Part shown: positions 6,454 to 26,226 of the stretch, in pieces | Position numbering within the stretch: position 1 is the first letter of the stretch | Layout: the number at the start of each line of letters is the position of its first letter | Source of the DNA: a virus | Virus record (IMG/VR): IMGVR_UViG_3300044991_002698 | Coordinates: 1-27,791 of that record | Direction: 5' to 3' (one strand) | DNA: 27,791 nucleotides | The notes under the pieces: model-generated | What the model saw: the letters and a program-made list of their open reading frames with translations, nothing else | The model's database searches: none | What the model was told of the DNA's origin: nothing | Program-made: the position numbers and the translations under genes

Positions 6454-9400
6454 TTATCTTCCGAAGATATATCTTAAACCAAGTTGACCTTGCCAAACAT
6501 CAAATACAGATGTGTTCCACTGATAAGTGTCTTTGATAAGACCTGTTGTTGTGGTACCATTTGCGTTGAGGACTGGTTGGGTTGACAATCTGTAAACAGG
6601 TTCACCAGCCGTGTTAGTTGATGAATAGCTGAGAATTGCAGGGTTTGTAGCTCTTTGAGATACACCCCAATCTTTGTTTAACATATTACCAAAGTTCAAG
6701 ATATCCAATCTAATTTGGAATGTGTTTCTGTGACCTTTGATATCGATGAAGAAATCTTGTTGAACAGACAAATCAAATCTGTGTAACATTGGGATAGCGA
6801 GAGCGTTTCTTTCAGCGTATTGACCTCTTCTTGTAGAAAGATATTTGTCTTGGTCGATGTAAGCGTCAAAAGCTGATTGTTGTTGAGCCTCTGTGAACGT
6901 TACACCACCCGAAGTGAATTGAGAAAATTTGATTTCTGTACCTTTGTTTGGAACAAAGATAAGTTCATTGTTATTGACTCTATCACCGTTTAAGTCACCC
7001 GCTACGAAATAGCTGAATGGGTTACCTTGTTGACCTACATAACCTAATGTGATTGTAGTTGCTCCTGCACCTTTCTTTGCACCGTTCTCTAATCTATAAC
7101 CGAGAAGACCAACAACTCTGTTGGGAATCCAGTTATCAGAGAAAGCTAAAGGAAGGTCATTGTTTCCGTTGATTGCTCTTGCCGATTGCCAAGAACCAGA
7201 AGCGATTGAACCAGCACTCATGTAATCTTTAGAAAGTGATTTAGTCCACGCTAATGAACCCCAAAGACCTTTTTGAACAGGGTATTTTAACTCAATAGTT
7301 GCAGATGTATTGTATGCACCTTCTTTATTTGTTAAAACAGCCCCCATTGAAACGTTGTCATTTACTCTTACTCCAGCGTCAGTTCTTGCGAACACAGGTC
7401 TTTTATCTGGACCATTGAATACTCCCACAGGAGCGTCCAAGTTAGAATTGTAGTAATGAACCGCGTTTAAAAATCTATTGTACATAAGTTCTACTGTTCC
7501 CACAAAACCGAATGGTAACTTTTTATCTGCCGCAAGGTTAGTTTTCCATACTTGTGGGAATTTATAGTTAGGGTCAGTGAAAGCTAAATCAAAAGTAGAA
7601 GGAAGAGTTGGAGTTTGAGGGGTGAAATATTGGTTAGGGTTAGCTGTGAAACCGTAGTTTGCAGCTGCCGCACCTGATACATCGATAAATCCTGTCAAAA
7701 CACCATTGTTTCCTACTTGGTTCGAAACGAATACATAAGGAGGTCTACCTGTGAATACACCTGAACCACCTCTTACTTGTAAGTCGTTTTTACCTTTGTG
7801 ATTATAGTTGAACCCAATTCTTGGTTCAAAGAGAATTTGTGTTTTTGGTAAAACACCTGTGTTGAATTTCTCACCACCAGCAAAAGTCATTGCAGTTACT
7901 GCAGGATTTTCTAATGCTGTGTTTTCAAAACCAATCACAGCTGCTCTCAAACCACCTGTGATTTTCAAGTTAGCGTTGTACTGATACTCATCCTGAACAT
8001 AAAGGTCAATACGAGACGTTTTCAAAACTTGCATTGGTTCGATTCCACCAGGAAGTGCTGAATAACGAAATTGGAATCTTGCAGGTGCAAGAGTTGAGGG
8101 TCTTCCGCCGTTCGCTAATGATTGATTAGCCGCTGTGTAGAAATCTGAAAGTGAGTTGAAGATATACACACCGTTTGATGCGGGAAAGAACAAGTTATTA
8201 GAACGATATTTTTCGAAGTTCACACCAGCAACCACAGTATGTTTGTCCATGAATTTGGTCAAGTTATTTGTGATGTGGAATGTATTGTAATCCAATTTGT
8301 TACCAGGAGTGAATGGGTCAAAACCAACAGAAGTGTAAGTTGCAGTACCATTCATGATATCAATAGTTGGAAACATCTGTGAAAGATATCCTCTATTTTC
8401 AATCTGCTTGTCATAACCAACAATTAAGTTGTTGTGTAAGGTGTTGGAGAATTTACTGTTGAGTTCCAATACTGAAGAACGTGTATTATCTTGAATAATA
8501 TATCCACTGTTCTTGAAACTCATAGCATTGAACTGTGTAGTTCTATTACCAGCACCTGCAGATTGAGAGTTTGAAATGTTTATCTCAGCTTCAGAATTGT
8601 GATAAACATAACGAGCAGTCAACTTGTGTTTGTCGTTAATATTCCAATCCATTCTTACCAAGAATTTTTCAGACGTGTTTGCGTTGTTGTACCCTTCCCA
8701 AGGACCCGTCTCATAATTGAAATTTGTTCTCATGAAATCCGAAAGAGTTTTCATATCTGAATATAAAACTCTTGAGATTTGAGAGCCAGCTAAAGGAGAA
8801 CCCTGTGAAATCCAAGTTGTTCCAGGTTCAGTTTTTGTAAGTGTTTCAAAGTTACCAAAAATGAATAATTTGTTTTTGATAATAGGAGCACCCAATCTGA
8901 AACCTCTTGTTGTTTCTTCAAATTTTGAAGCTGTTACAGTTGTTCCTTTAGCGTTGTTACCAACATAACGTTGGTTGTCTCTGTTAAACTGATAATAAGA
9001 ACCCTCTACCTTGTTGGAACCACTTTTTGTTACAGCGTTGATTCCAGCACCAACGAAACCACTCTGACGAATGTCAAATGGAGCCACGTTGATTTGTAGT
9101 TGGTCAATTGCATCTAATGAGATTGCAGTTGAACCAGTTCTACCACCAGCCTGAGCTGAAGAACCAAGACCAAAACCATTGTTGAATTGAGAACCGTCAA
9201 TAGTGAAGTTGTTCAATCTACTATCAGCAGCTCCGAATGAACGACCGTCACCCATTGGGTTGTACTTGGTGATTCCGTCGATAGTTCTTGCACCAGTAAT
9301 TGGAACAGAAGTTAGTTCTCTTCTTCCGAATTGCTGAGACGCACCTGTTCTACCATTACTAAAGATGTTGTTTTTGTTTGAACTTACAACCACCTCTGAT

Positions 9401-9741
9401 AATGTTTTAATTTCATCAATTAACACGACTTCCAAGGAAGTTGTAATACCCAAGTTTGTGTTAATGTCAGAGAATTCCTTCATTTTGTATCCCACGTTAG
9501 AAACGTGAATTACGTAAGGACCGCCAGGACGTACAGCTGGAATGGTAAAGTTACCAACTTTGTTTGTAATCGCACGATATTCGGAACCAGTAGGTTGGTG
9601 AATAGCATGGACTGACGCCCCCGCTAGAGCATCTCCTTTTTCATTTTTCACTACACCAGACAGGGCGGATGTTGTAATTTGCCCGAAAGATGCGAGAGTC
9701 ACGAACAAGGATAAAAGTGACATCATGATTGTTTTTTTCAT
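6454..9741 (-). CDS. TonB-dependent outer-membrane receptor, Oar-like
   Basis: 1095 aa, full length. A signal peptide (MKKTIMMSLLSLFVTLASFG) is followed by a carboxypeptidase-regulatory-like beta-sandwich (residues about 27-110: LSGVVKNEKGDALAGASVHA ... GPYVIHVSNVGYK), a plug domain (about 135-235, with NFTIDGSQFNN and INVAPFDIRQSGFVGAGINA) and a beta-barrel to the end (LGLRYIFGR). This layout is that of Oar/SusC-related receptors of Bacteroidetes, which import substrates in the outer membrane using TonB energy. I see no frameshift. It is monocistronic, with its own terminator, and preceded by a leader ORF and terminator. A host-type receptor in a phage region is odd: receptor decoy, replacement or nutrient uptake are all possible. 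Misassembly is the main alternative. Confidence 0.9.
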   Translation of the reverse strand: MKKTIMMSLLSLFVTLASFGQITTSALSGVVKNEKGDALAGASVHAIHQPTGSEYRAITNKVGNFTIPAVRPGGPYVIHVSNVGYKMKEFSDINTNLGITTSLEVVLIDEIKTLSEVVVSSNKNNIFSNGRTGASQQFGRRELTSVPITGARTIDGITKYNPMGDGRSFGAADSRLNNFTIDGSQFNNGFGLGSSAQAGGRTGSTAISLDAIDQLQINVAPFDIRQSGFVGAGINAVTKSGSNKVEGSYYQFNRDNQRYVGNNAKGTTVTASKFEETTRGFRLGAPIIKNKLFIFGNFETLTKTEPGTTWISQGSPLAGSQISRVLYSDMKTLSDFMRTNFNYETGPWEGYNNANTSEKFLVRMDWNINDKHKLTARYVYHNSEAEINISNSQSAGAGNRTTQFNAMSFKNSGYIIQDNTRSSVLELNSKFSNTLHNNLIVGYDKQIENRGYLSQMFPTIDIMNGTATYTSVGFDPFTPGNKLDYNTFHITNNLTKFMDKHTVVAGVNFEKYRSNNLFFPASNGVYIFNSLSDFYTAANQSLANGGRPSTLAPARFQFRYSALPGGIEPMQVLKTSRIDLYVQDEYQYNANLKITGGLRAAVIGFENTALENPAVTAMTFAGGEKFNTGVLPKTQILFEPRIGFNYNHKGKNDLQVRGGSGVFTGRPPYVFVSNQVGNNGVLTGFIDVSGAAAANYGFTANPNQYFTPQTPTLPSTFDLAFTDPNYKFPQVWKTNLAADKKLPFGFVGTVELMYNRFLNAVHYYNSNLDAPVGVFNGPDKRPVFARTDAGVRVNDNVSMGAVLTNKEGAYNTSATIELKYPVQKGLWGSLAWTKSLSKDYMSAGSIASGSWQSARAINGNNDLPLAFSDNWIPNRVVGLLGYRLENGAKKGAGATTITLGYVGQQGNPFSYFVAGDLNGDRVNNNELIFVPNKGTEIKFSQFTSGGVTFTEAQQQSAFDAYIDQDKYLSTRRGQYAERNALAIPMLHRFDLSVQQDFFIDIKGHRNTFQIRLDILNFGNMLNKDWGVSQRATNPAILSYSSTNTAGEPVYRLSTQPVLNANGTTTTGLIKDTYQWNTSVFDVWQGQLGLRYIFGR

Positions 9742-10373: not shown

Positions 10374-10404
10374 AAAAAAGGGATACTAATTGTATCCCTT
10401 TTTT
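10374..10404 (-). terminator. tmRNA terminator
   Basis: Stem GGGATAC (10380-10386) / GTATCCC (10392-10398), loop TAATT, flanked by A6 and T6. It lies 7 nt past the tmRNA 3' end. Confidence 0.85.
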
Positions 10405-10410
10405 AAAGTG

Positions 10411-10822
10411 TGGAGAAGACGGGAGTCGAACCCGTGTCTTGTTCGAGATAACTATAAGTGACTACACGTTTATTTGATTGTTTCTCAACCAACAAATAGA
10501 TAGTTTCTTACAGAGTCACTAACAAACCTGTTCCGACTCGGATTTAACGAGCCAGCCGGTTTGCTCGAACAATTTTTTTTAAACTTAATTAAAGGTAATG
10601 TTAAACCGAACGGACTTCTGTTCCTAGGTGTATGTCCTTGCCGACCCGAGGTTGTTCTCTACCAATTAGGCAGCAACAACAGCTTCTTCTTGGATAAGAC
10701 CAAGTGCAGAAAGCTTAGCGAAAGTTTCGCCATTTACGTTTTAAACCAGTTTTGAAGGAGTTAATTCAGCTCCTACGTGCCACCTATACCTACACACGTC
10801 AATCAATTGCCATTACTTCCCC
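10411..10822 (-). ncRNA. ssrA: tmRNA with an unusually long tag
   Basis: 412 nt. The ends form the tRNA-like domain: 5' GGGGAAG (10822-10816) pairs with CTTCTCC (10418-10412). The T arm is ACGGGTTCGACTCCCGT and CCA is not encoded. After AACGTAAAT comes an open frame starting at GGC (10731-10729), encoding 21 residues that begin GETFAKLS and end EEAVVAA, then TAA (10668-10666). Gly-Glu-Thr is how I recall Bacteroidetes tags starting, but those are about 9 residues ending LAA. tmRNA with SmpB frees stalled ribosomes and tags the peptide for Clp proteases. No smpB is seen here. Driven by a perfect host-type promoter and ended by a strong terminator. Confidence 0.85.
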
Positions 10823-10841: not shown

Positions 10842-10872
10842 CAAATATAGATATAAATATCGGAATTACAAA
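10842..10872 (-). promoter_or_regulatory. Bacteroidetes-type promoter of tmRNA
   Basis: Minus strand: TTTG (10872-10869), 19-bp spacer, TATATTTG (10849-10842), an exact consensus fit. Transcription would start about 12 nt before the mature 5' end. A TATTTAT copy (10859-10853) lies in the spacer and is probably incidental. Confidence 0.75.
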
Positions 10873-12744: not shown

Positions 12745-13581
12745 ATGAATAATAAACTTGATTTTCTCAAAGAGGTTTTGAGTGTTCCTACAAAAACCTC
12801 AAACGAGGAACTAATGATTGAATTTTTGGTTGATTGGTTCGAAAAAAAGGGTATAGATTACAAAGTTGACCAAATGGGTAATGTGTATGCAACAAAAAAA
12901 AGTGGAGAAACCCCATCTGATTTCTATTACCCCTGTGTTATTTCTCACACCGACACAGTACATTCAATAAGCGAAATAATTGTAAAAGAGGAATCCAAAC
13001 CAAATGCTCAAGGTGAATATAAGTTAGCTTTGAAAGGTTACAATCAACACGGAAAACCAACTGGAATTGGAGGTGATGATAAGTGTGGTGTGTTCGCATG
13101 TTTAACACTTTTAGATGAACTTCCTTTTCTCAAAGCAGCATTTTTTGTATCTGAAGAAACAGGGTGTCATGGTTCACGTAATGCCGACCCAGAGTTCTTC
13201 TCAAATGTAGGTTACGCAATACAGTTTGATGCACCTGAAAATTGGATGATTACAGAAAAATGTTTTGGTCAAATTCTTTTCGATAGAGATACAGAATTTT
13301 TTGAAAAATGTGATAAAGTTTTGACTGAGGGTATGGTTAAGGAAGACATGGAGTACATGGTTCATCCATATACTGATGTTTATGCTTTAAGGAGTAAATT
13401 TGATTTTTCTTGTATTAATTTTTCAATTGGGTATTACGATTACCATTCAGCAAATGAATACGTCGTTGTTGAGGATGTGTTCAATGGAATTGAGCATGGA
13501 AGAAAAATTATTTCAGAACTTGGATACAAACTATATTACAAGAAATCTAACGAATATAAGTGGCAGTACGAAAAATTTTAA
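12745..13581 (+). CDS. Minimal M20-family metallopeptidase
   Basis: 278 aa, against roughly 400 for common M20 enzymes, so the dimerisation (lid) domain appears absent. Metal and catalytic residues are visible in order: H68 and D70 (SHTDTVH), D111 (GIGGDDKCG), E137/E138 (SEETGCHGS), D162 (QFDAPE) and H234 (YDYHSANEY). Peptidase T, which trims peptides, is the nearest familiar member; M42 or a deacylase is possible. Probably cytoplasmic. It has a host-type promoter ending 4 nt before the ATG. Its stop overlaps the stop of the convergent zinc-ribbon gene. Confidence 0.8.
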   Translation: MNNKLDFLKEVLSVPTKTSNEELMIEFLVDWFEKKGIDYKVDQMGNVYATKKSGETPSDFYYPCVISHTDTVHSISEIIVKEESKPNAQGEYKLALKGYNQHGKPTGIGGDDKCGVFACLTLLDELPFLKAAFFVSEETGCHGSRNADPEFFSNVGYAIQFDAPENWMITEKCFGQILFDRDTEFFEKCDKVLTEGMVKEDMEYMVHPYTDVYALRSKFDFSCINFSIGYYDYHSANEYVVVEDVFNGIEHGRKIISELGYKLYYKKSNEYKWQYEKF

Positions 13582-13742: not shown

Positions 13743-13767
13743 AAAAAAAGGGACTTAACGTCCCTTT
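13743..13767 (-). terminator. Terminator of the clpC-like gene
   Basis: Stem GGGAC (13750-13754) / GTCCC (13760-13764), extended by AAA/TTT, loop TTAAC containing the stop codon, with a T7 tract on the minus strand. Confidence 0.8.
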
Positions 13768-15770
13768 TTCTGTATTTTGATTTCATCTTTCTCCACTTTC
13801 ATGTGGTATTTCTTGTTCTCTAAAATTTTACCTGTCAAAACTTCTTCAGATAATAAATCCTCAACTTTATCTTGAATCGCTCTTTTTAAAGGTCTTGCTC
13901 CATAAAGTTCATCAAACCCAACTTTGGCCAAATGTTCTACCAAGGTCTCATCATAAGTAATGAAATATTTTTGTTCTTCTAATCTTAAAACCAATTTTTT
14001 AAGTTCGATTTCAGTGATTCTTTTGATGTCGTTTACTGAAAGAGAATTGAATACAATAGTATCATCAATACGATTTATAAATTCAGGAGAAAAGAAATTT
14101 TTCATTTCTTTCATTAACATTTGTTTTTTTGCTTCTTCGTTTGAATATGAATTGGAACTAAATCCGATACCTGTACCAAAATCTTGAAGTTTTTTTACAC
14201 CCAAATTGGAAGTGAGAATGATTAGAGTGTTTTTGAAATTTATCTTTCTACCCAAGCTGTCTGTTACATGACCATCATCCAAAATTTGGAGTAAAACAGT
14301 AAACACGTCTTTGTGAGCTTTTTCTACTTCGTCGAACAAAATTACGGAATAAGGTTTATTCTTAACTTTTTCTGTTAGTTGACCTCCTTCATCGTAGCCG
14401 ACATAACCAGGAGGTGCACCAACCAATTTCGACACTGTATGTTTTTCTTGATATTCACTCATGTCAACACGAATCAGAGAATCTTCAGTTCCAAACATTT
14501 CTTTTGCTAATTGTTTAGCCAAGTGTGTTTTACCTACACCAGTTGAACCCAAGAAAACAAATGAACCAATTGGACGATTGGGGTCTTTGATACCGAGTCT
14601 GTTACGCTTAATAGATTTTACAATTTTCTTAACTGCATCATCTTGACCAATCACTTTATCCATTAGAATTTTATCAAGATTAATTAAAGCTTTTGTATCA
14701 TCCACACTCATTTTTGAAACAGGGATTTTTGTCATATTTGACACAACGTCGTAGACATCGTTGAGAACAATTTGTTGTTTATCTTTCTCTAATTGTTCCT
14801 CAAATTTTCTTTTTTCAACATCGAGTTTGTCTATAAGTTTTTTTTCAGTGTCACGCAATTGTGCCGCTTTTTCGTAATTCTGTTTCTTTACAACATCCAT
14901 TTTAGCATTTCTTATTTCCGCAGCTTTCTTTTTTAACTCCTCTATTACTTCGGGTACCTTGAGTTCGGTTTGCATTCTTGCACCAACTTCGTCTAAAATG
15001 TCAAAAGCTTTGTCGGGAAACTCTCTGTCTGTAATGTATCGGTCTGCGAGTTTTACACAAGTTTCGATTACTTCATCGGAATAATGAACTTTGTGAAACG
15101 ATTCATATTTGTCTCTTACATTTTTTAAAATCTGAATTGTTTCAGCCACAGTTGAGGGTTCAACCATAACCTTTTGAAATCTACGTTCCAAAGCCCCATC
15201 TTTTTCGATGTTTTTACGGAACTCATCCAAAGTTGTTGCACCAATACATTGGAGTTCCCCTCGGGAAAGTGCTGGTTTGAAAATATTCGAACCATCCATA
15301 GAACCCGCAGAATTACCCGAACCTACCAAAGTATGAATTTCGTCAATGAAAACAATTATGTTTGGGTTTGCTTGAAGCTCTTCGATAATAACCTTCATTC
15401 TTTCTTCGAACTGACCTCTATATTTTGTACCTGCAACAACTGATGTTAAATCGAGATTAACAATTCTTTTATCAACAAGATTACGAGGACAATCTCCATT
15501 TACAATCTTAATTGCAAGGCCCTCAACAATTGCGGTTTTACCACAACCTGGTTCACCAATTATAATCGGATTATTTTTCTTTCTGCGAGACAAAATCTGT
15601 GCGATACGTAAAATTTCTCTTTCCCTTCCGATTACAGGGTCAAGTTTACCTTGTTCGGCCAACTTATTCAAATCTCTACTAAAGTTGTCAAGGACGGGAG
15701 TAGTTGTGTCAGAATTTTGTTTCTGTTTCTTACTCATTGTTTTGTCATCGTCGTCTAGTAAATCGTTCAT
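13755..15770 (-). CDS. ClpC-type AAA+ unfoldase without the N-domain
   Basis: 671 aa, against about 840 for bacterial ClpC. It starts in the acidic linker ([10 protein letters not shown]) and joins directly to [11 protein letters not shown], so the Clp_N substrate/adaptor domain is missing. AAA1: Walker A GEPGCGKT (72-79), Walker B IVFIDE (139-144), pore Tyr117 and Arg fingers R196/R197. A UVR-like middle motif ([10 protein letters not shown], about 298-307) places it with ClpC rather than ClpA. AAA2: Walker A GSTGVGKT (408-415), Walker B VILFDE (476-481), pore GYVG (455-458) and FINRID. The loop GIGFSS (534-539) fits the ClpP-docking IGF motif. So it should unfold proteins and feed host ClpP, with altered substrate choice. 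Divergent from hsp20. Confidence 0.9.
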
Positions 15771-15965: not shown

Positions 15966-16364
15966 ATGTATTACAGTAATTTAGACAGAATTTTCGATGA
16001 TTTCTTCAAAGATGGAGGTATGTACAAAACCTATAAAATTGCATCACCCAACTTAAATTTTAAGGAAAGGAGTGATGATTGTGAAATCAATCAAACTAAA
16101 GATGGGACTTATTTAGTTTTTGAAACTCCAGGGTTTAATAAAAATAACCTAAAGGTAGAAATCGAAGATGGATTTCTACACATTGATGGTATGAGGACTT
16201 ATAAATTGAATGGAGAAGAAAAAGTAAAAACAATTAAAAAAGAATTTAGGATTGGAGGCGATTATAACACTTCATCAATTGAAGCAACTATAGAAGATGG
16301 TTTACTTACGGTATTCGTACCTAATTACAAGAAACAAGAAAAGAAAAGAATCAGTCTCCTCTAA
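15966..16364 (+). CDS. Hsp20 small heat-shock protein
   Basis: 132 aa. The alpha-crystallin domain spans about residues 37-130, with the conserved GTYLVFETPGFNKNNLKVEIEDG and IEDGLLTVFVPNY blocks (the latter the classic A-x-x-x-n-G-v-L pattern). The N-terminal arm is short (MYYSNLDRIFDDFFKDGG), close to the phage and IbpA type. It holds unfolding proteins in soluble oligomers without ATP. Hsp20 proteins are known in T4-like phages, where they may help virion assembly. Divergent from the clpC-like gene, with a shared intergenic region of TTTTGTCA boxes and A-rich leader. Ends at its own terminator. Confidence 0.9.
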   Translation: MYYSNLDRIFDDFFKDGGMYKTYKIASPNLNFKERSDDCEINQTKDGTYLVFETPGFNKNNLKVEIEDGFLHIDGMRTYKLNGEEKVKTIKKEFRIGGDYNTSSIEATIEDGLLTVFVPNYKKQEKKRISLL

Positions 16365-18004: not shown

Positions 18005-18817
18005 ATGGCGTTTTCATATTATATAGCAAGTCCTTGTAGTGGAGGAAGTAATATTTTCATAAAATCAGCAGAATTTCTTATCTCTGGTAAAATTTACGAG
18101 TTAACTATCTCCTCAAACGTTGCCTGCTGGACCGTTATTTCAGGTCCTGAAACTCCATTAGCACAAACTGCAACTATTTTTACAGGCCCTTGGAATTCTT
18201 GTGTTGAATGTTTACAAGATATAACTCCAACCCCTACCGCATCACTTACACCAACCCCAACACAGACACCAACAAATACAACAACACAAACGCAAACACC
18301 GACACCATCGATAACTGCAAGTAATACACCAACACCATCTATAACTGCAACTAATACGTCAACTCCAACACAAACACCGACAAATACTGCAACACCTACA
18401 CAAACAGGAACACCTACACAAACAGGAACACCTACAAAAACACCAACTCAAACACAAACACCAACAAATACGTCGACTCAAACACAAACACCAACACCAT
18501 CAGTAACCGCAAGTAATACCCCAACACCATCAATCACACCTACAAATACTGTAACACCTACAAATACCCAAACAGGTACACCAACTCAAACACCAACAAA
18601 TACAGCGACTCCAACGCCTACACATACACCATGGCCTTTAACTGGCTATAGTGTTAATGAACAATATGAATATGATTCACAATGTTGTAATCCACCAACA
18701 GGTGCGACAACCTCAAACACCGCATATCCTCATCCAATAGATACTGATGGAGTAGGAGTTCCATTTGTACAGTTAAATGCTGTGGAATTAGGAGGATTTA
18801 ACGGATTAAATAATTAA
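18005..18817 (+). CDS. Thr/Pro-repeat structural-type protein
   Basis: 270 aa. Residues 1-75 form a Cys-containing N-terminal module ([18 protein letters not shown]; two Cys in WNSCVEC). Residues about 77-212 are low-complexity Thr/Pro/Gln/Asn repeats of the TPTQTPTNT type. The C-terminal 55 residues ([20 protein letters not shown] ... [11 protein letters not shown]) return to ordered sequence. Such Thr/Pro stalks occur in surface-exposed fibres or decorations of phages of aquatic bacteria. Function unknown; a virion appendage or attachment protein is likely. First gene of the block leading to terminase. Confidence 0.7.
18226..18638 (+). repeat. Low-complexity Thr/Pro-coding repeat tract
   Basis: About 410 nt of degenerate ACA/CCA/CCT/AAT codon repeats, with units such as ACACCAACAAATAC and a longer unit (ACACCAACACCATC followed by a Thr-Ala-Ser-Asn stretch) that recurs. 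The reading frame is kept throughout, so it encodes protein; it is not a CRISPR array. Confidence 0.85.
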
Positions 18818-22577: not shown

Positions 22578-24332
22578 GTGACTAAAGAACAATTAATTAT
22601 AGAAGTAACCAAGTGTATGAGGAACACTCCTTATGCATTAAGAACTTATCTCCAAACTTACGATAACACAGTTTCAAAATACGTCCCATTAGATTTATTT
22701 CCTGACCAAGTAAGTCTAATAGAAGACTATGATTCTTTTAACGAAAATATCGCACTAAAATATAGACAGGCGGGAGTTTCCACAGTCACGGCTGCATGGG
22801 CATCAAAAAAGTTAGTTTTTGCAAAAAAACAAAAACCAGAAAAAATTCTCATTATTGCCAACAAACTTGACACCTCTGTTGAGATGGCAAATAAAATTAG
22901 AAATTTCACAGAACAGTGGCCTGCTTGGGTTGGAGTTGGGTTTTCCGCAGATAAAAACTCACAAAGACATTTTAAACTCACAAATGATTGCGAAGTTAAG
23001 GCTGTCGCAACTTCAAAAGACGCCCTTCGTGGTTATACGCCAACAATATTAATTTTTGATGAGGCTGCGTTCATTGAGGCAGACAATGATTTTTGGTCTG
23101 CTTGTATGGCCTCACTTTCTACTGGTGGTAAGGTAATTGTCGTTTCAACCCCTAACGGATATGACCCAATTTATTATGAAATTTACGACCAAGCGTTAAG
23201 AGGTATGAATGAATTCAAAATCTCTGAAATGTATTGGTATCGAGACCCTAGGTATACCAAAGACCTCTATATGGTAAAAACAAATGATTTAGTTCATTTT
23301 TTACTGAACAGAGAAGATTATCCTCAAGACGTTGTTGTTGATTTATCGGTAGACAATCCATACGAAAGAGACCATTCACTTACCACAGATTACATTACAA
23401 AGGGTTATAAACCATGTTCTGCGTGGTTTGAAGGAATGGTAAAAAAATTGAAATTTGATAGGAGGAAAGTCGCCCAAGAATTAGAGTGTAATTTTTTGGG
23501 TTCAGGAGATAATGTATTTGAATCTGAATTAATGCAGAAAATCTCTCATAATCAATTGAGAGATGCTTCGGCGAAACTCATGGGTGGTGCTCTTTGGATT
23601 TTTAAAGAACCGGAAAACGGTCACAAATATGTCATGGGCGTTGACGTATCAAGAGGAGATTCTGAAGATTTCTCATGTATTGAAATTATTGACTTTGATG
23701 AGCGTGAACAAGTATTGGAATACGTAGGAAAAGTTCCTCCTGATGTCATTGCGGAAATTGCATATAAGTGGGGTTCTATGTATAATGCTTATTGTGTTAT
23801 TGATATTACTGGGGGTATGGGTGTTTCTACTGCTAGAAAAATGCAAGAAATGTCATATGCATCAGGGTTATATGTGGATAATATAGACCCATCAAAAAAA
23901 TGGAAGTATGACCCAAAATTAAATGAAAAAATTCCTGGTATAAATTTCAATTCAAAAAGAGTACAAATTATTTCTGCATTTGAGGAGGCGGTGAGACATG
24001 ACTTTAAAATATATTCGAACAGATTGTATAATGAAATGAACACTTTTATTTACGTTAATGGAAGGCCTGACCATCAGAAAGGACACCATGATGATTGTAT
24101 TATGGCAATGTCTATGGCAATTTACGTCGCAGAAAAATCATTTCAATCTTTACAGAAGGTTGTAAATCATACTAAAGCAATGCTCAATTCGTGGGCGACA
24201 TTTACTTCAGAGAATAAAAATTCGTCTCAATTTTTTAATCCCATGATACCACAATCGAATGGTTCAAATAATTCTATGAGACAAGGAGCCACAAGGGAGG
24301 ATTACCAAAAATATAAGTGGTTATTTAGTTGA
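22578..24332 (+). CDS. Terminase large subunit, T4 gp17-like
   Basis: 584 aa. ATPase half: an adenine-binding region with PDQVSLIEDYD, Walker A-like YRQAGVST (62-69, in place of the usual GKS/T), Walker B ILIFDEAAFIE (157-167) and coupling motif VVSTPNG (188-194). Nuclease half: D356 (VMGVDVSRGD), D409 (YCVIDITGG) and the HHDD block (D505/D506), the three acidic sites of the RNase H-like fold. It cuts concatemeric DNA and drives it into the prohead through the portal. The start is GTG at 22578, since no in-frame ATG precedes Walker A. Last gene before the portal. Confidence 0.95.
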   Translation: MTKEQLIIEVTKCMRNTPYALRTYLQTYDNTVSKYVPLDLFPDQVSLIEDYDSFNENIALKYRQAGVSTVTAAWASKKLVFAKKQKPEKILIIANKLDTSVEMANKIRNFTEQWPAWVGVGFSADKNSQRHFKLTNDCEVKAVATSKDALRGYTPTILIFDEAAFIEADNDFWSACMASLSTGGKVIVVSTPNGYDPIYYEIYDQALRGMNEFKISEMYWYRDPRYTKDLYMVKTNDLVHFLLNREDYPQDVVVDLSVDNPYERDHSLTTDYITKGYKPCSAWFEGMVKKLKFDRRKVAQELECNFLGSGDNVFESELMQKISHNQLRDASAKLMGGALWIFKEPENGHKYVMGVDVSRGDSEDFSCIEIIDFDEREQVLEYVGKVPPDVIAEIAYKWGSMYNAYCVIDITGGMGVSTARKMQEMSYASGLYVDNIDPSKKWKYDPKLNEKIPGINFNSKRVQIISAFEEAVRHDFKIYSNRLYNEMNTFIYVNGRPDHQKGHHDDCIMAMSMAIYVAEKSFQSLQKVVNHTKAMLNSWATFTSENKNSSQFFNPMIPQSNGSNNSMRQGATREDYQKYKWLFS

Positions 24333-24375: not shown

Positions 24376-26226
24376 ATGGCTGAAAATAATTTAACGGTTT
24401 GGCAGAGGTTATCCCAAACCTTTGGACCTAATTCTTTGTTGGGACAAGATGTTCCAACATTCAAGTTTGATAAAAAAGAATTATTAAGGACCAAAAGTAG
24501 GGATGAGTATGAGCGAGAAAAACTTCAAGCTCAACAAACGTTTTATCTAACTAATCAATGGGCTAAAGTTGAGAACAATTTATATTCTCAAGCAATTTAT
24601 TACGAGCCAAGTAGGCTATCATCACAATATGACTACGAGTCAATGGAGTATACTCCTGAAATTTCCGCGGCTTTAGATATCTACGCTGAAGAGTCAACGA
24701 CAACAAACGAAGATGGGTTTATTCTTCAAATTTATTCAGAATCAAAAAGAATCAAAGCAGTTTTAGCCGACCTATTTAACAATAGTTTAGATATTAATAC
24801 AAACTTGCCGATGTGGACGAGGAATACTTGTAAATTCGGTGATAATTTTGTTTATCTAAAATTAGACCCAGAGAAAGGTATTGTAGGATGTCAACAACTA
24901 CCGACAATTGAAATAGAAAGACACGAAGTCGGTGCTTCCAACAAAATTTTATCTCCATCACAAGAGAAACCTGAAAAGCCAAAGGCCTTACAATTTACTT
25001 GGAAAAATAAAGGTATGGAGTTTCAGTCTTGGGAAATTGCTCACTTTAGATTATTAGGTGACGATAGAAAACTACCTTATGGAACATCCATGTTGGAGAA
25101 AGCAAGAAGGATTTGGAAACAACTTCTTTTATCAGAGGACGCAATGTTGATTTACAGAACTTCAAGAGCCCCCGAAAGAAGAATGTTCAAAGTTTTTGTT
25201 GGTAATATGAATGATGACGATGTTGAAGCATATGTACAACGTGTTGCCAACAAATTTAAGAGAGAACAAATTGTTGATAGTAGAACGGGTAACGTTGACA
25301 TGAGATTTAATCAGATGGCGGTTGACCAAGATTATTTTATTCCTGTACGTGACCCAGCAGCTCCTGACCCAATCACAACACTTCCAGGTGCGACAAATCT
25401 TTCGGAGATTGCAGATATTGAATATATTCAAAAGAAACTTCTAACCGCTCTTCGTGTACCTAAAGCATTTTTGGGATTCGAAGAAGTTGTTGGAGACGGA
25501 AAAAATCTTTCTTTACAGGATATTCGTTTTGCACGTACTATTAACAGAATTCAAAAAAGTATGTTGGCAGAACTTAATAAAATTGCCATCATTCATTTAT
25601 TCCTTTTAGGGTTTGAAGATGAGTTAGGTAATTTCACATTAGGTTTAACAAATCCATCAACTCAAGCGGACTTGTTAAAAATTGATGTATGGAAAGAAAA
25701 GATTTTATTATACAAAGATTTAGTTGCAGACCCAGGAAATGGAATCCAAGCAACTTCATCTACATGGGCGAAAAAGCATATTTTTGGATGGTCCGATGAA
25801 GAAATTAGATTGGACTTACAACAACAAAGAATTGAAAGAGCCGTAGGAGAAGAACTTAAAGCAACTCCAACAGTAATAACAAAAACAGGAGTGTTTGACA
25901 ATATTGACAAACTTTATGGAAGTCAGACGGGAGGAACCGCTTCTGCAGGTACGGAACCTGCGGGTGGTGAAACTTCTCCTGACTTTGGTGCACCACCGCC
26001 GGGTGGAGAAGCACCTTTGACACCACCTCCACCAGCAGAAGAAGCGGGAGGACCACCGCCACCTCCAGAACCTGAAGGAACAGTAACACCAGAATCTAGA
26101 AAAAAAGATTTGAATATTTTGGTTGAGGGAAATTTGATTGAAAGAGCAAGCAACATTGATTTGGGTCAAGGGCAAGAATCTTTAGGTAAAATTTCTCAAG
26201 AATTAGATAAGTTACTGAATTCATAA
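24376..26226 (+). CDS. Portal vertex protein, T4 gp20-like
   Basis: 616 aa, longer than T4 gp20 (524 aa). The motifs SQYDYESMEYTPEISAALDI (about 81-100) and FGDNFVYLKLDPEKGIV, and the later YGTSMLEKARRIWKQ and EDAMLIYRTSRAPERRMFKV block, place it in the T4-type portal family. It forms the dodecameric DNA channel at one capsid vertex, docks terminase and nucleates head assembly. The C-terminus carries a Pro/Gly-rich insertion (about 525-575, GGEAPLTPPPPAEE) and a short helix, which is unusual for the family. Next after terminase, in typical phage order. Confidence 0.9.
   Translation: MAENNLTVWQRLSQTFGPNSLLGQDVPTFKFDKKELLRTKSRDEYEREKLQAQQTFYLTNQWAKVENNLYSQAIYYEPSRLSSQYDYESMEYTPEISAALDIYAEESTTTNEDGFILQIYSESKRIKAVLADLFNNSLDINTNLPMWTRNTCKFGDNFVYLKLDPEKGIVGCQQLPTIEIERHEVGASNKILSPSQEKPEKPKALQFTWKNKGMEFQSWEIAHFRLLGDDRKLPYGTSMLEKARRIWKQLLLSEDAMLIYRTSRAPERRMFKVFVGNMNDDDVEAYVQRVANKFKREQIVDSRTGNVDMRFNQMAVDQDYFIPVRDPAAPDPITTLPGATNLSEIADIEYIQKKLLTALRVPKAFLGFEEVVGDGKNLSLQDIRFARTINRIQKSMLAELNKIAIIHLFLLGFEDELGNFTLGLTNPSTQADLLKIDVWKEKILLYKDLVADPGNGIQATSSTWAKKHIFGWSDEEIRLDLQQQRIERAVGEELKATPTVITKTGVFDNIDKLYGSQTGGTASAGTEPAGGETSPDFGAPPPGGEAPLTPPPPAEEAGGPPPPPEPEGTVTPESRKKDLNILVEGNLIERASNIDLGQGQESLGKISQELDKLLNS

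Follow-up and report, generated by a model that had tools for sequence, protein, structure and literature searches.

A long, conserved tmRNA tag beside a ClpC-like unfoldase suggests a virus-run tag-and-destroy pathway in freshwater T4-like phages

tmRNAs are known from phages, and the purpose of the tags that they encode has hardly been studied. The tmRNA locus described here raises the question of what a virus would gain from a tag of over twice the length of the host tag, and which protease would read it. The window, i.e., the whole stretch of DNA that was analyzed, is a 27.8-kb virus record and represents a fragment of a larger genome, that of a T4-like phage of roughly 300 kb belonging to a large clade of uncultured freshwater phages. 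The tmRNA locus comprises the following features:

10410..10822, minus strand: tmRNA (ssrA) gene of 413 nt, one-piece, with the 3′ CCA incompletely encoded (ARAGORN, Rfam RF00023, and covariation)
10666..10731, minus strand: tag frame GETFAKLSALGLIQEEAVVAA followed by TAA (ARAGORN coding part, 92-157 of the gene)
10842..10872, minus strand: Bacteroidota-type promoter TTTG-N19-TATATTTG (motif enriched upstream of relatives)
10374..10398, minus strand: terminator-like hairpin GGGATAC-TAATT-GTATCCC followed by a T run (seen in the sequence, 3′ of the tmRNA)

The original prediction had called this element a phage tmRNA from its letters alone, and the call was borne out by ARAGORN, by an end-to-end Rfam match, and by covariation. 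The RF00023 match spans model positions 1-374 with a score of 64.9 bits (gathering score of 47; E value of 2.2e-23). Homologs were collected with an nhmmer profile, mostly in loci fetched using the ClpC-like neighbor as the query, and 40 relatives were aligned for a covariation test in which the structure was taken from the window sequence (acceptor stem, T stem, helix P2, and, of the pseudoknots, PK1). In the named stems, 88.4% of the pairs were standard, and double-sided changes numbered 249 compared to 77.5 after shuffling, with none of 500 shuffles as high. The stem covariation score reached 0.52, against 0.09 to 0.16 for the slid structure; a structure derived from a single row tends to outdo its slid versions in cells paired, though not to such a degree in double-sided changes. 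Such changes were present in both the acceptor and T stems of the tRNA-like domain, in the long helix P2 (91 to 100% paired), and in PK1 upstream of the resume codon (stems 77 to 100% paired). The G3-U pair, which is the alanine identity element of the tmRNA acceptor stem, was found in 39 of the 40 relatives. The support for the stems, far beyond chance, confirms that the element is a genuine tmRNA. A blastn search with the window tmRNA returned no match in 50,697 phage records, which indicates that none of them is a close isolate.

The tmRNA gene also seems to be an independent transcription unit for a host-type polymerase, given its own upstream motif, TTTG-N19-TATATTTG, which we take to be of the Bacteroidota promoter type. 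The element TAnnTTTG occurred upstream of 52 of 65 tmRNA relatives compared to 7.6 in shuffles, and the full motif with a spacer of 17 to 21 occurred upstream of 30 of the 65 compared to 0.2, with the spacer length peaking at 19. The GGGATAC/GTATCCC hairpin on the other side of the gene was read directly from the sequence and is not listed by the consensus scan; it is symmetrical and could serve both strands.

Bacteroidota, and more precisely a freshwater Chitinophagaceae bacterium, probably provide the host of this phage. This assignment draws on a gene located just downstream of the tmRNA:

6454-9741, minus strand: TonB-type outer-membrane receptor of 1095 residues with a CarboxypepD_reg domain

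Along its full length, this gene shares 67 to 68% identity with counterparts in freshwater Chitinophagaceae assemblies, a match suggestive of the host group. A relative of the receptor was seen in 38 of the loci searched; it is possibly a host-derived surface protein that could alter uptake or block superinfection. Five freshwater Chitinophagaceae genomes with relatives of the TonB-type gene encode the tag GETNYAMAA, and the phage tmRNA has the resume context AAACGTAAAT-GGC, in agreement with ...CAAAT-GGC in the tmRNAs of Chitinophagaceae hosts. Because this context is shared, the phage tag resembles one of host type whose start was kept and whose middle and end were replaced. All 51 Bacteroidota tmRNAs examined encode 9-residue tags ending in [YF]A[LM]AA with an invariant terminal AA; the length of about 9 residues given for Bacteroidetes tags in the original prediction holds, and the long tag is not shared by the hosts. 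Conversely, none of 63 phage tags is a 9-mer with this ending. A broader phage-tag pattern had no match in 296 genomes of the family to which the host probably belongs, and a narrow pattern that represents the first tag class only was absent from 84,980 bacterial species.

The tag frame runs from GGC at 10731-10729 through TAA at 10668-10666. It contains the codons quoted in the original prediction and encodes 21 residues with the Gly-Glu-Thr start kept, and both covariation and sequence context place the resume codon at the same GGC. Related phage contigs yielded 63 full-length relatives, and every one of them encodes a tag of 21 or 22 residues; 60 tags were extracted by script, and the 3 that begin at a GAC resume codon were read by eye. 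Since several loci are near relatives, these 63 tags, among which 49 are distinct, do not all represent independent events. The 8-residue tags that ARAGORN gave for some relatives (e.g., AEEATVVA) were rejected as misplaced starts, the aligned frames being 21 residues long. The tag consensus is G-[NEKD]-[TV]-[FLI]-[AND]-K-[ML]-x-x-[LIV]-G-L-[ITVL]-[RAK]-x-x-x-V-x-x-A, in which Gly11 and Leu12 are invariant in all 63 tags and Lys6 is nearly so. In the 60 script-read tags, Gly11 is encoded by GGT (47), GGA (12), or GGC (1) and Leu12 by CTT (24), TTA (33), TTG (2), or CTA (1). That the codons differ and the residues stay fixed points to selection on the peptide. Codon position 3 is the most variable in the frame (0.51 versus 0.35 and 0.27), synonymous changes make up 46% of the codon differences between close tag pairs compared to the ~28% expected for random single changes, and the overall pN/pS of the frame is moderately low, at 0.60.

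The replacement of the middle and the end proposed for the host-type tag was upheld, but the VVAA ending singled out at the time varies among relatives (VVAA, VVGA, VVKA, VVEA, VVTA, TVVA, VTVA, VAVA, VVTI, and VTVS), and the constant element is instead the inner G-L. The next-to-last residue is free in phages (A, V, T, G, K, E, or I), and most tags terminate in Ala, with some ending in Ile or Ser. The preserved part is thus the core in phage tags and the C terminus in host tags. The idea that the tag forms an amphipathic helix was discarded, its helical moment being low (at most 0.19).

Further annotated genes of the window include the following:

12745..13581, plus strand: M42/M20-like metallo-aminopeptidase (Pfam M42, E value of 0.0023, below the cut-off)
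13755..15770, minus strand: ClpC-like AAA+ unfoldase of 671 aa without an N domain (Pfam, ClpC structures, and motifs)
15966..16364, plus strand: HSP20-type small heat-shock protein (Pfam PF00011, E value of 7.9e-12)
22578-24332, plus strand: T4-type large terminase
24376-26226, plus strand: portal

A Thr/Pro-rich repeat protein with TPTQTPT units is also encoded upstream of the terminase-portal block (18005-18817, plus strand). The clpC gene lies 2.9 kb upstream of the tmRNA gene on the same strand, and a tmRNA was found downstream of it in 49 of the 50 ClpC loci for which 5.5 kb or more of downstream sequence was available; ClpC, rather than the tmRNA, was the criterion by which these loci had been selected. 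The phage protein possesses two AAA+ domains with both Walker A/B pairs, KYRG and GYVG pore loops, a UVR-type middle domain, and a GIGF ClpP-docking loop. Pfam gave no match for a Clp_N domain in it, and alignments to the best-matching ClpC structures begin only at ClpC residue 145-147. The adjoining M42/M20-like peptidase gene is retained nearly clade-wide, with 77 of loci L082-L163 containing it, and related phage proteins are annotated as peptidases. Two genomes were scanned for further Clp-type ATPases, and none besides ClpC was detected.

The window contains no ClpP, as it is a 28-kb fragment. Ten phage records, eight of which exceed 180 kb, were searched for partner genes. ClpP is encoded in all eight records larger than 180 kb, with the Ser, His, and Asp motifs present and with true ClpP structures as the closest matches. 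The same eight records carry a T4-type (S77) prohead protease separate from ClpP, so that ClpP is not needed for capsid maturation and a role as the capsid protease is unlikely. SmpB was found in 2 of the 10 records (L360 and L361, in large phages G027 and G024), and the one SmpB that was read has a seemingly intact C-terminal tail; a few members of the clade hence carry both trans-translation partners.

The linkage between the tag and the unfoldase is loose. Tag and ClpC distances correlate at 0.44, compared to 0.79 for ClpC and the peptidase, and phages with close ClpC proteins can differ in tag class. Strict co-inheritance of tag and ClpC was rejected on this basis, and the pattern resembles one in which phages exchange the tmRNA gene or portions of it, something that the shared tag core would allow. 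A scan of viral contigs for tmRNA 3′ ends returned many unrelated long tags of 20 to 33 residues among the matches listed. Among these same matches, some long tags lie near ClpC (L437, L629, and L487) and many have no ClpC in the recovered contig, which indicates that long tags are not confined to ClpC carriers. ClpC was present in 6 of 18 long-tag records and 1 of 14 short-tag records among the matches listed (Fisher P = 0.10), a trend only and one confounded by record size.

Other phage groups possess long tags of their own, ANNIVDMAPSLDEADAILAKFGWAEEAAVAA and AEDIMSIPTSLTRGNAVFARNAELAIAA being examples, and each of these reappears in related forms (L481, L555, and L630; L455, L502, and L535; L437 and L629), a viral tag diversity that has received little study. 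The tags of the LR756508 and LR756504 tmRNAs are not read with confidence. The huge phage LR756508 also carries, besides a full tmRNA, a 112-nt tmRNA-like match of 58 bits (L674, LR756508.1:414804-414915), which is perhaps only a tRNA-like domain, as in mycobacteriophage DS6A.

The phage tmRNA and its ClpC neighbor suggest a tag-and-destroy pathway that the virus itself operates while infecting its host. The original prediction had proposed that tagged proteins could be steered to or away from a particular protease, and that idea now has a concrete candidate in the phage ClpC, plus ClpP in the large relatives. Building on the observed RNA, frame, conservation, and neighboring and co-encoded machinery, we place at about even the chance of a phage-run trans-translation and proteolysis route in which the tag would be read by phage ClpC-ClpP. 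The phage tmRNA would be transcribed during infection from a host-type promoter of its own and acquire alanine through the G3-U pair. SmpB, supplied in most cases by the host and in a few relatives by the phage, would deliver it to ribosomes that have stalled on broken mRNA. A peptide of 21 or 22 residues would then be added instead of the 9-residue host tag. Its inner constant core, K-[LM]-x-x-[LIV]-G-L, would act as a degron or handle fitted to the N-domain-less phage ClpC, which would feed the tagged chains into phage ClpP, and the aminopeptidase encoded beside ClpC may finish the peptides. The phage would benefit by keeping ribosomes free during mRNA destruction and by returning amino acids to virion synthesis independently of host ClpX. 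In Bacillus, the N domain of ClpC carries the adaptor MecA. Since the phage ClpC has no such domain, direct reading of the tail by its pore loops would be the natural and more likely mode, and from the conservation pattern we infer that the core is the part it reads. We entertain more tentatively a stronger version in which the host route is replaced as a whole, the tag being a virus-specific degron read poorly by host proteases and well by an adaptor-free phage ClpC-ClpP, thereby forming a closed system from tagging to recycling.

A less probable explanation is that the tag represents an ordinary ssrA degron for host ClpXP (or ClpCP), recognized through its hydrophobic-Ala C terminus, while the phage ClpC and ClpP have different functions. 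The 12 extra residues would then only provide a longer unstructured lead that aids protease engagement. Most tags indeed still end in Ala, often as VVAA, VVTA, or VTVA, which speaks against the phage-run route in that it could be enough for host ClpXP; the loose co-inheritance of tmRNA and ClpC and the long tags of phages with no detected ClpC point in the same direction. However, an invariant inner Gly-Leu and a near-invariant Lys are unexpected in a mere spacer, and the next-to-last position, Ala in the hosts, is free in phages, where some tags even end in Ile or Ser.

It is unlikely that the tag instead protects or diverts, either by blocking host proteolysis of rescued phage fragments or by marking them for a nonprotease place or partner. 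The loss of the [YF]A[LM]AA end kept by the hosts and the charged next-to-last residues of some tags (VVKA and VVEA) would fit such a role, but the co-encoded unfoldase, protease, and peptidase indicate breakdown, and the terminal Ala is retained in most tags. The chief benefit of trans-translation can lie in the release of ribosomes by itself, and the gene might matter only for freeing ribosomes, with a near-neutral tag whose length is a historical accident. The only moderately low pN/pS would agree with this, whereas the fixed length, the invariant core, and the silent codon changes across 63 relatives make it distinctly improbable. Finally, a pseudogene or false tmRNA call, in favor of which the Rfam score falls below those of host tmRNAs (116 to 157 bits), is hardly credible and already refuted by the strong covariation and coding conservation, along with the G3-U pair, the conserved promoter, and a frame intact across the clade.

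Returning to the phage-run route, the tag retained by the clade has a constant core, exceeds the host tag more than twofold in length, and is encoded close to a phage unfoldase, which the large genomes supplement with a phage protease. The clade permits a direct test of whether viruses rewire ribosome rescue and protein turnover and supplies a candidate pair of tag and protease with which bacterial protein degradation might be controlled. Judging by the matches listed in our scan, phage tags that are long and specific to a lineage appear to be common and have gone unexamined.

Among known systems, the closest is the one-piece tmRNA of Bacteroidota (tags GNTQYAMAA, GETNYAMAA, and GENNYALAA), which belongs to the same RNA family and shares the alanine-type acceptor stem, the resume-codon context, and the Gly-Asn/Glu-Thr tag start. 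The phage tag differs from it in having 21 or 22 residues rather than 9, an invariant inner G-L, and no [YF]A[LM]AA end. The phage ClpC-ClpP pair resembles its bacterial counterpart in D1, D2, the UVR middle domain, the pore loops, the docking loop, and the ClpP catalytic motifs, and departs from it in that the phage ClpC lacks the N domain. In Mesoplasma florum, a long ssrA tag is likewise tied to a protease other than ClpXP, namely, Lon, with measured recognition (PMC8138137). The parallel is an analogy only, since that system is bacterial, relies on Lon, and has an unrelated tag sequence, and reading by phage ClpC-ClpP is predicted. Our literature search, which was partial, found no paper in which phage ClpC and ClpP are described alongside a long phage tag that is conserved. 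Virus-encoded trans-translation RNAs have been described in mycobacteriophages and Bacillus phage G (PMC4131195), in huge phages that in some cases also carry SmpB (PMC7162821, whose available sections do not discuss the tag or Clp), and in the marine phage Melnitz, for whose two-piece tmRNA amino acid recycling was proposed (PMC9004378). Compared to what the available sections of these reports describe, the phages analyzed here stand apart by a long tag conserved across a clade, encoded beside ClpC and accompanied by ClpP in the same genomes.
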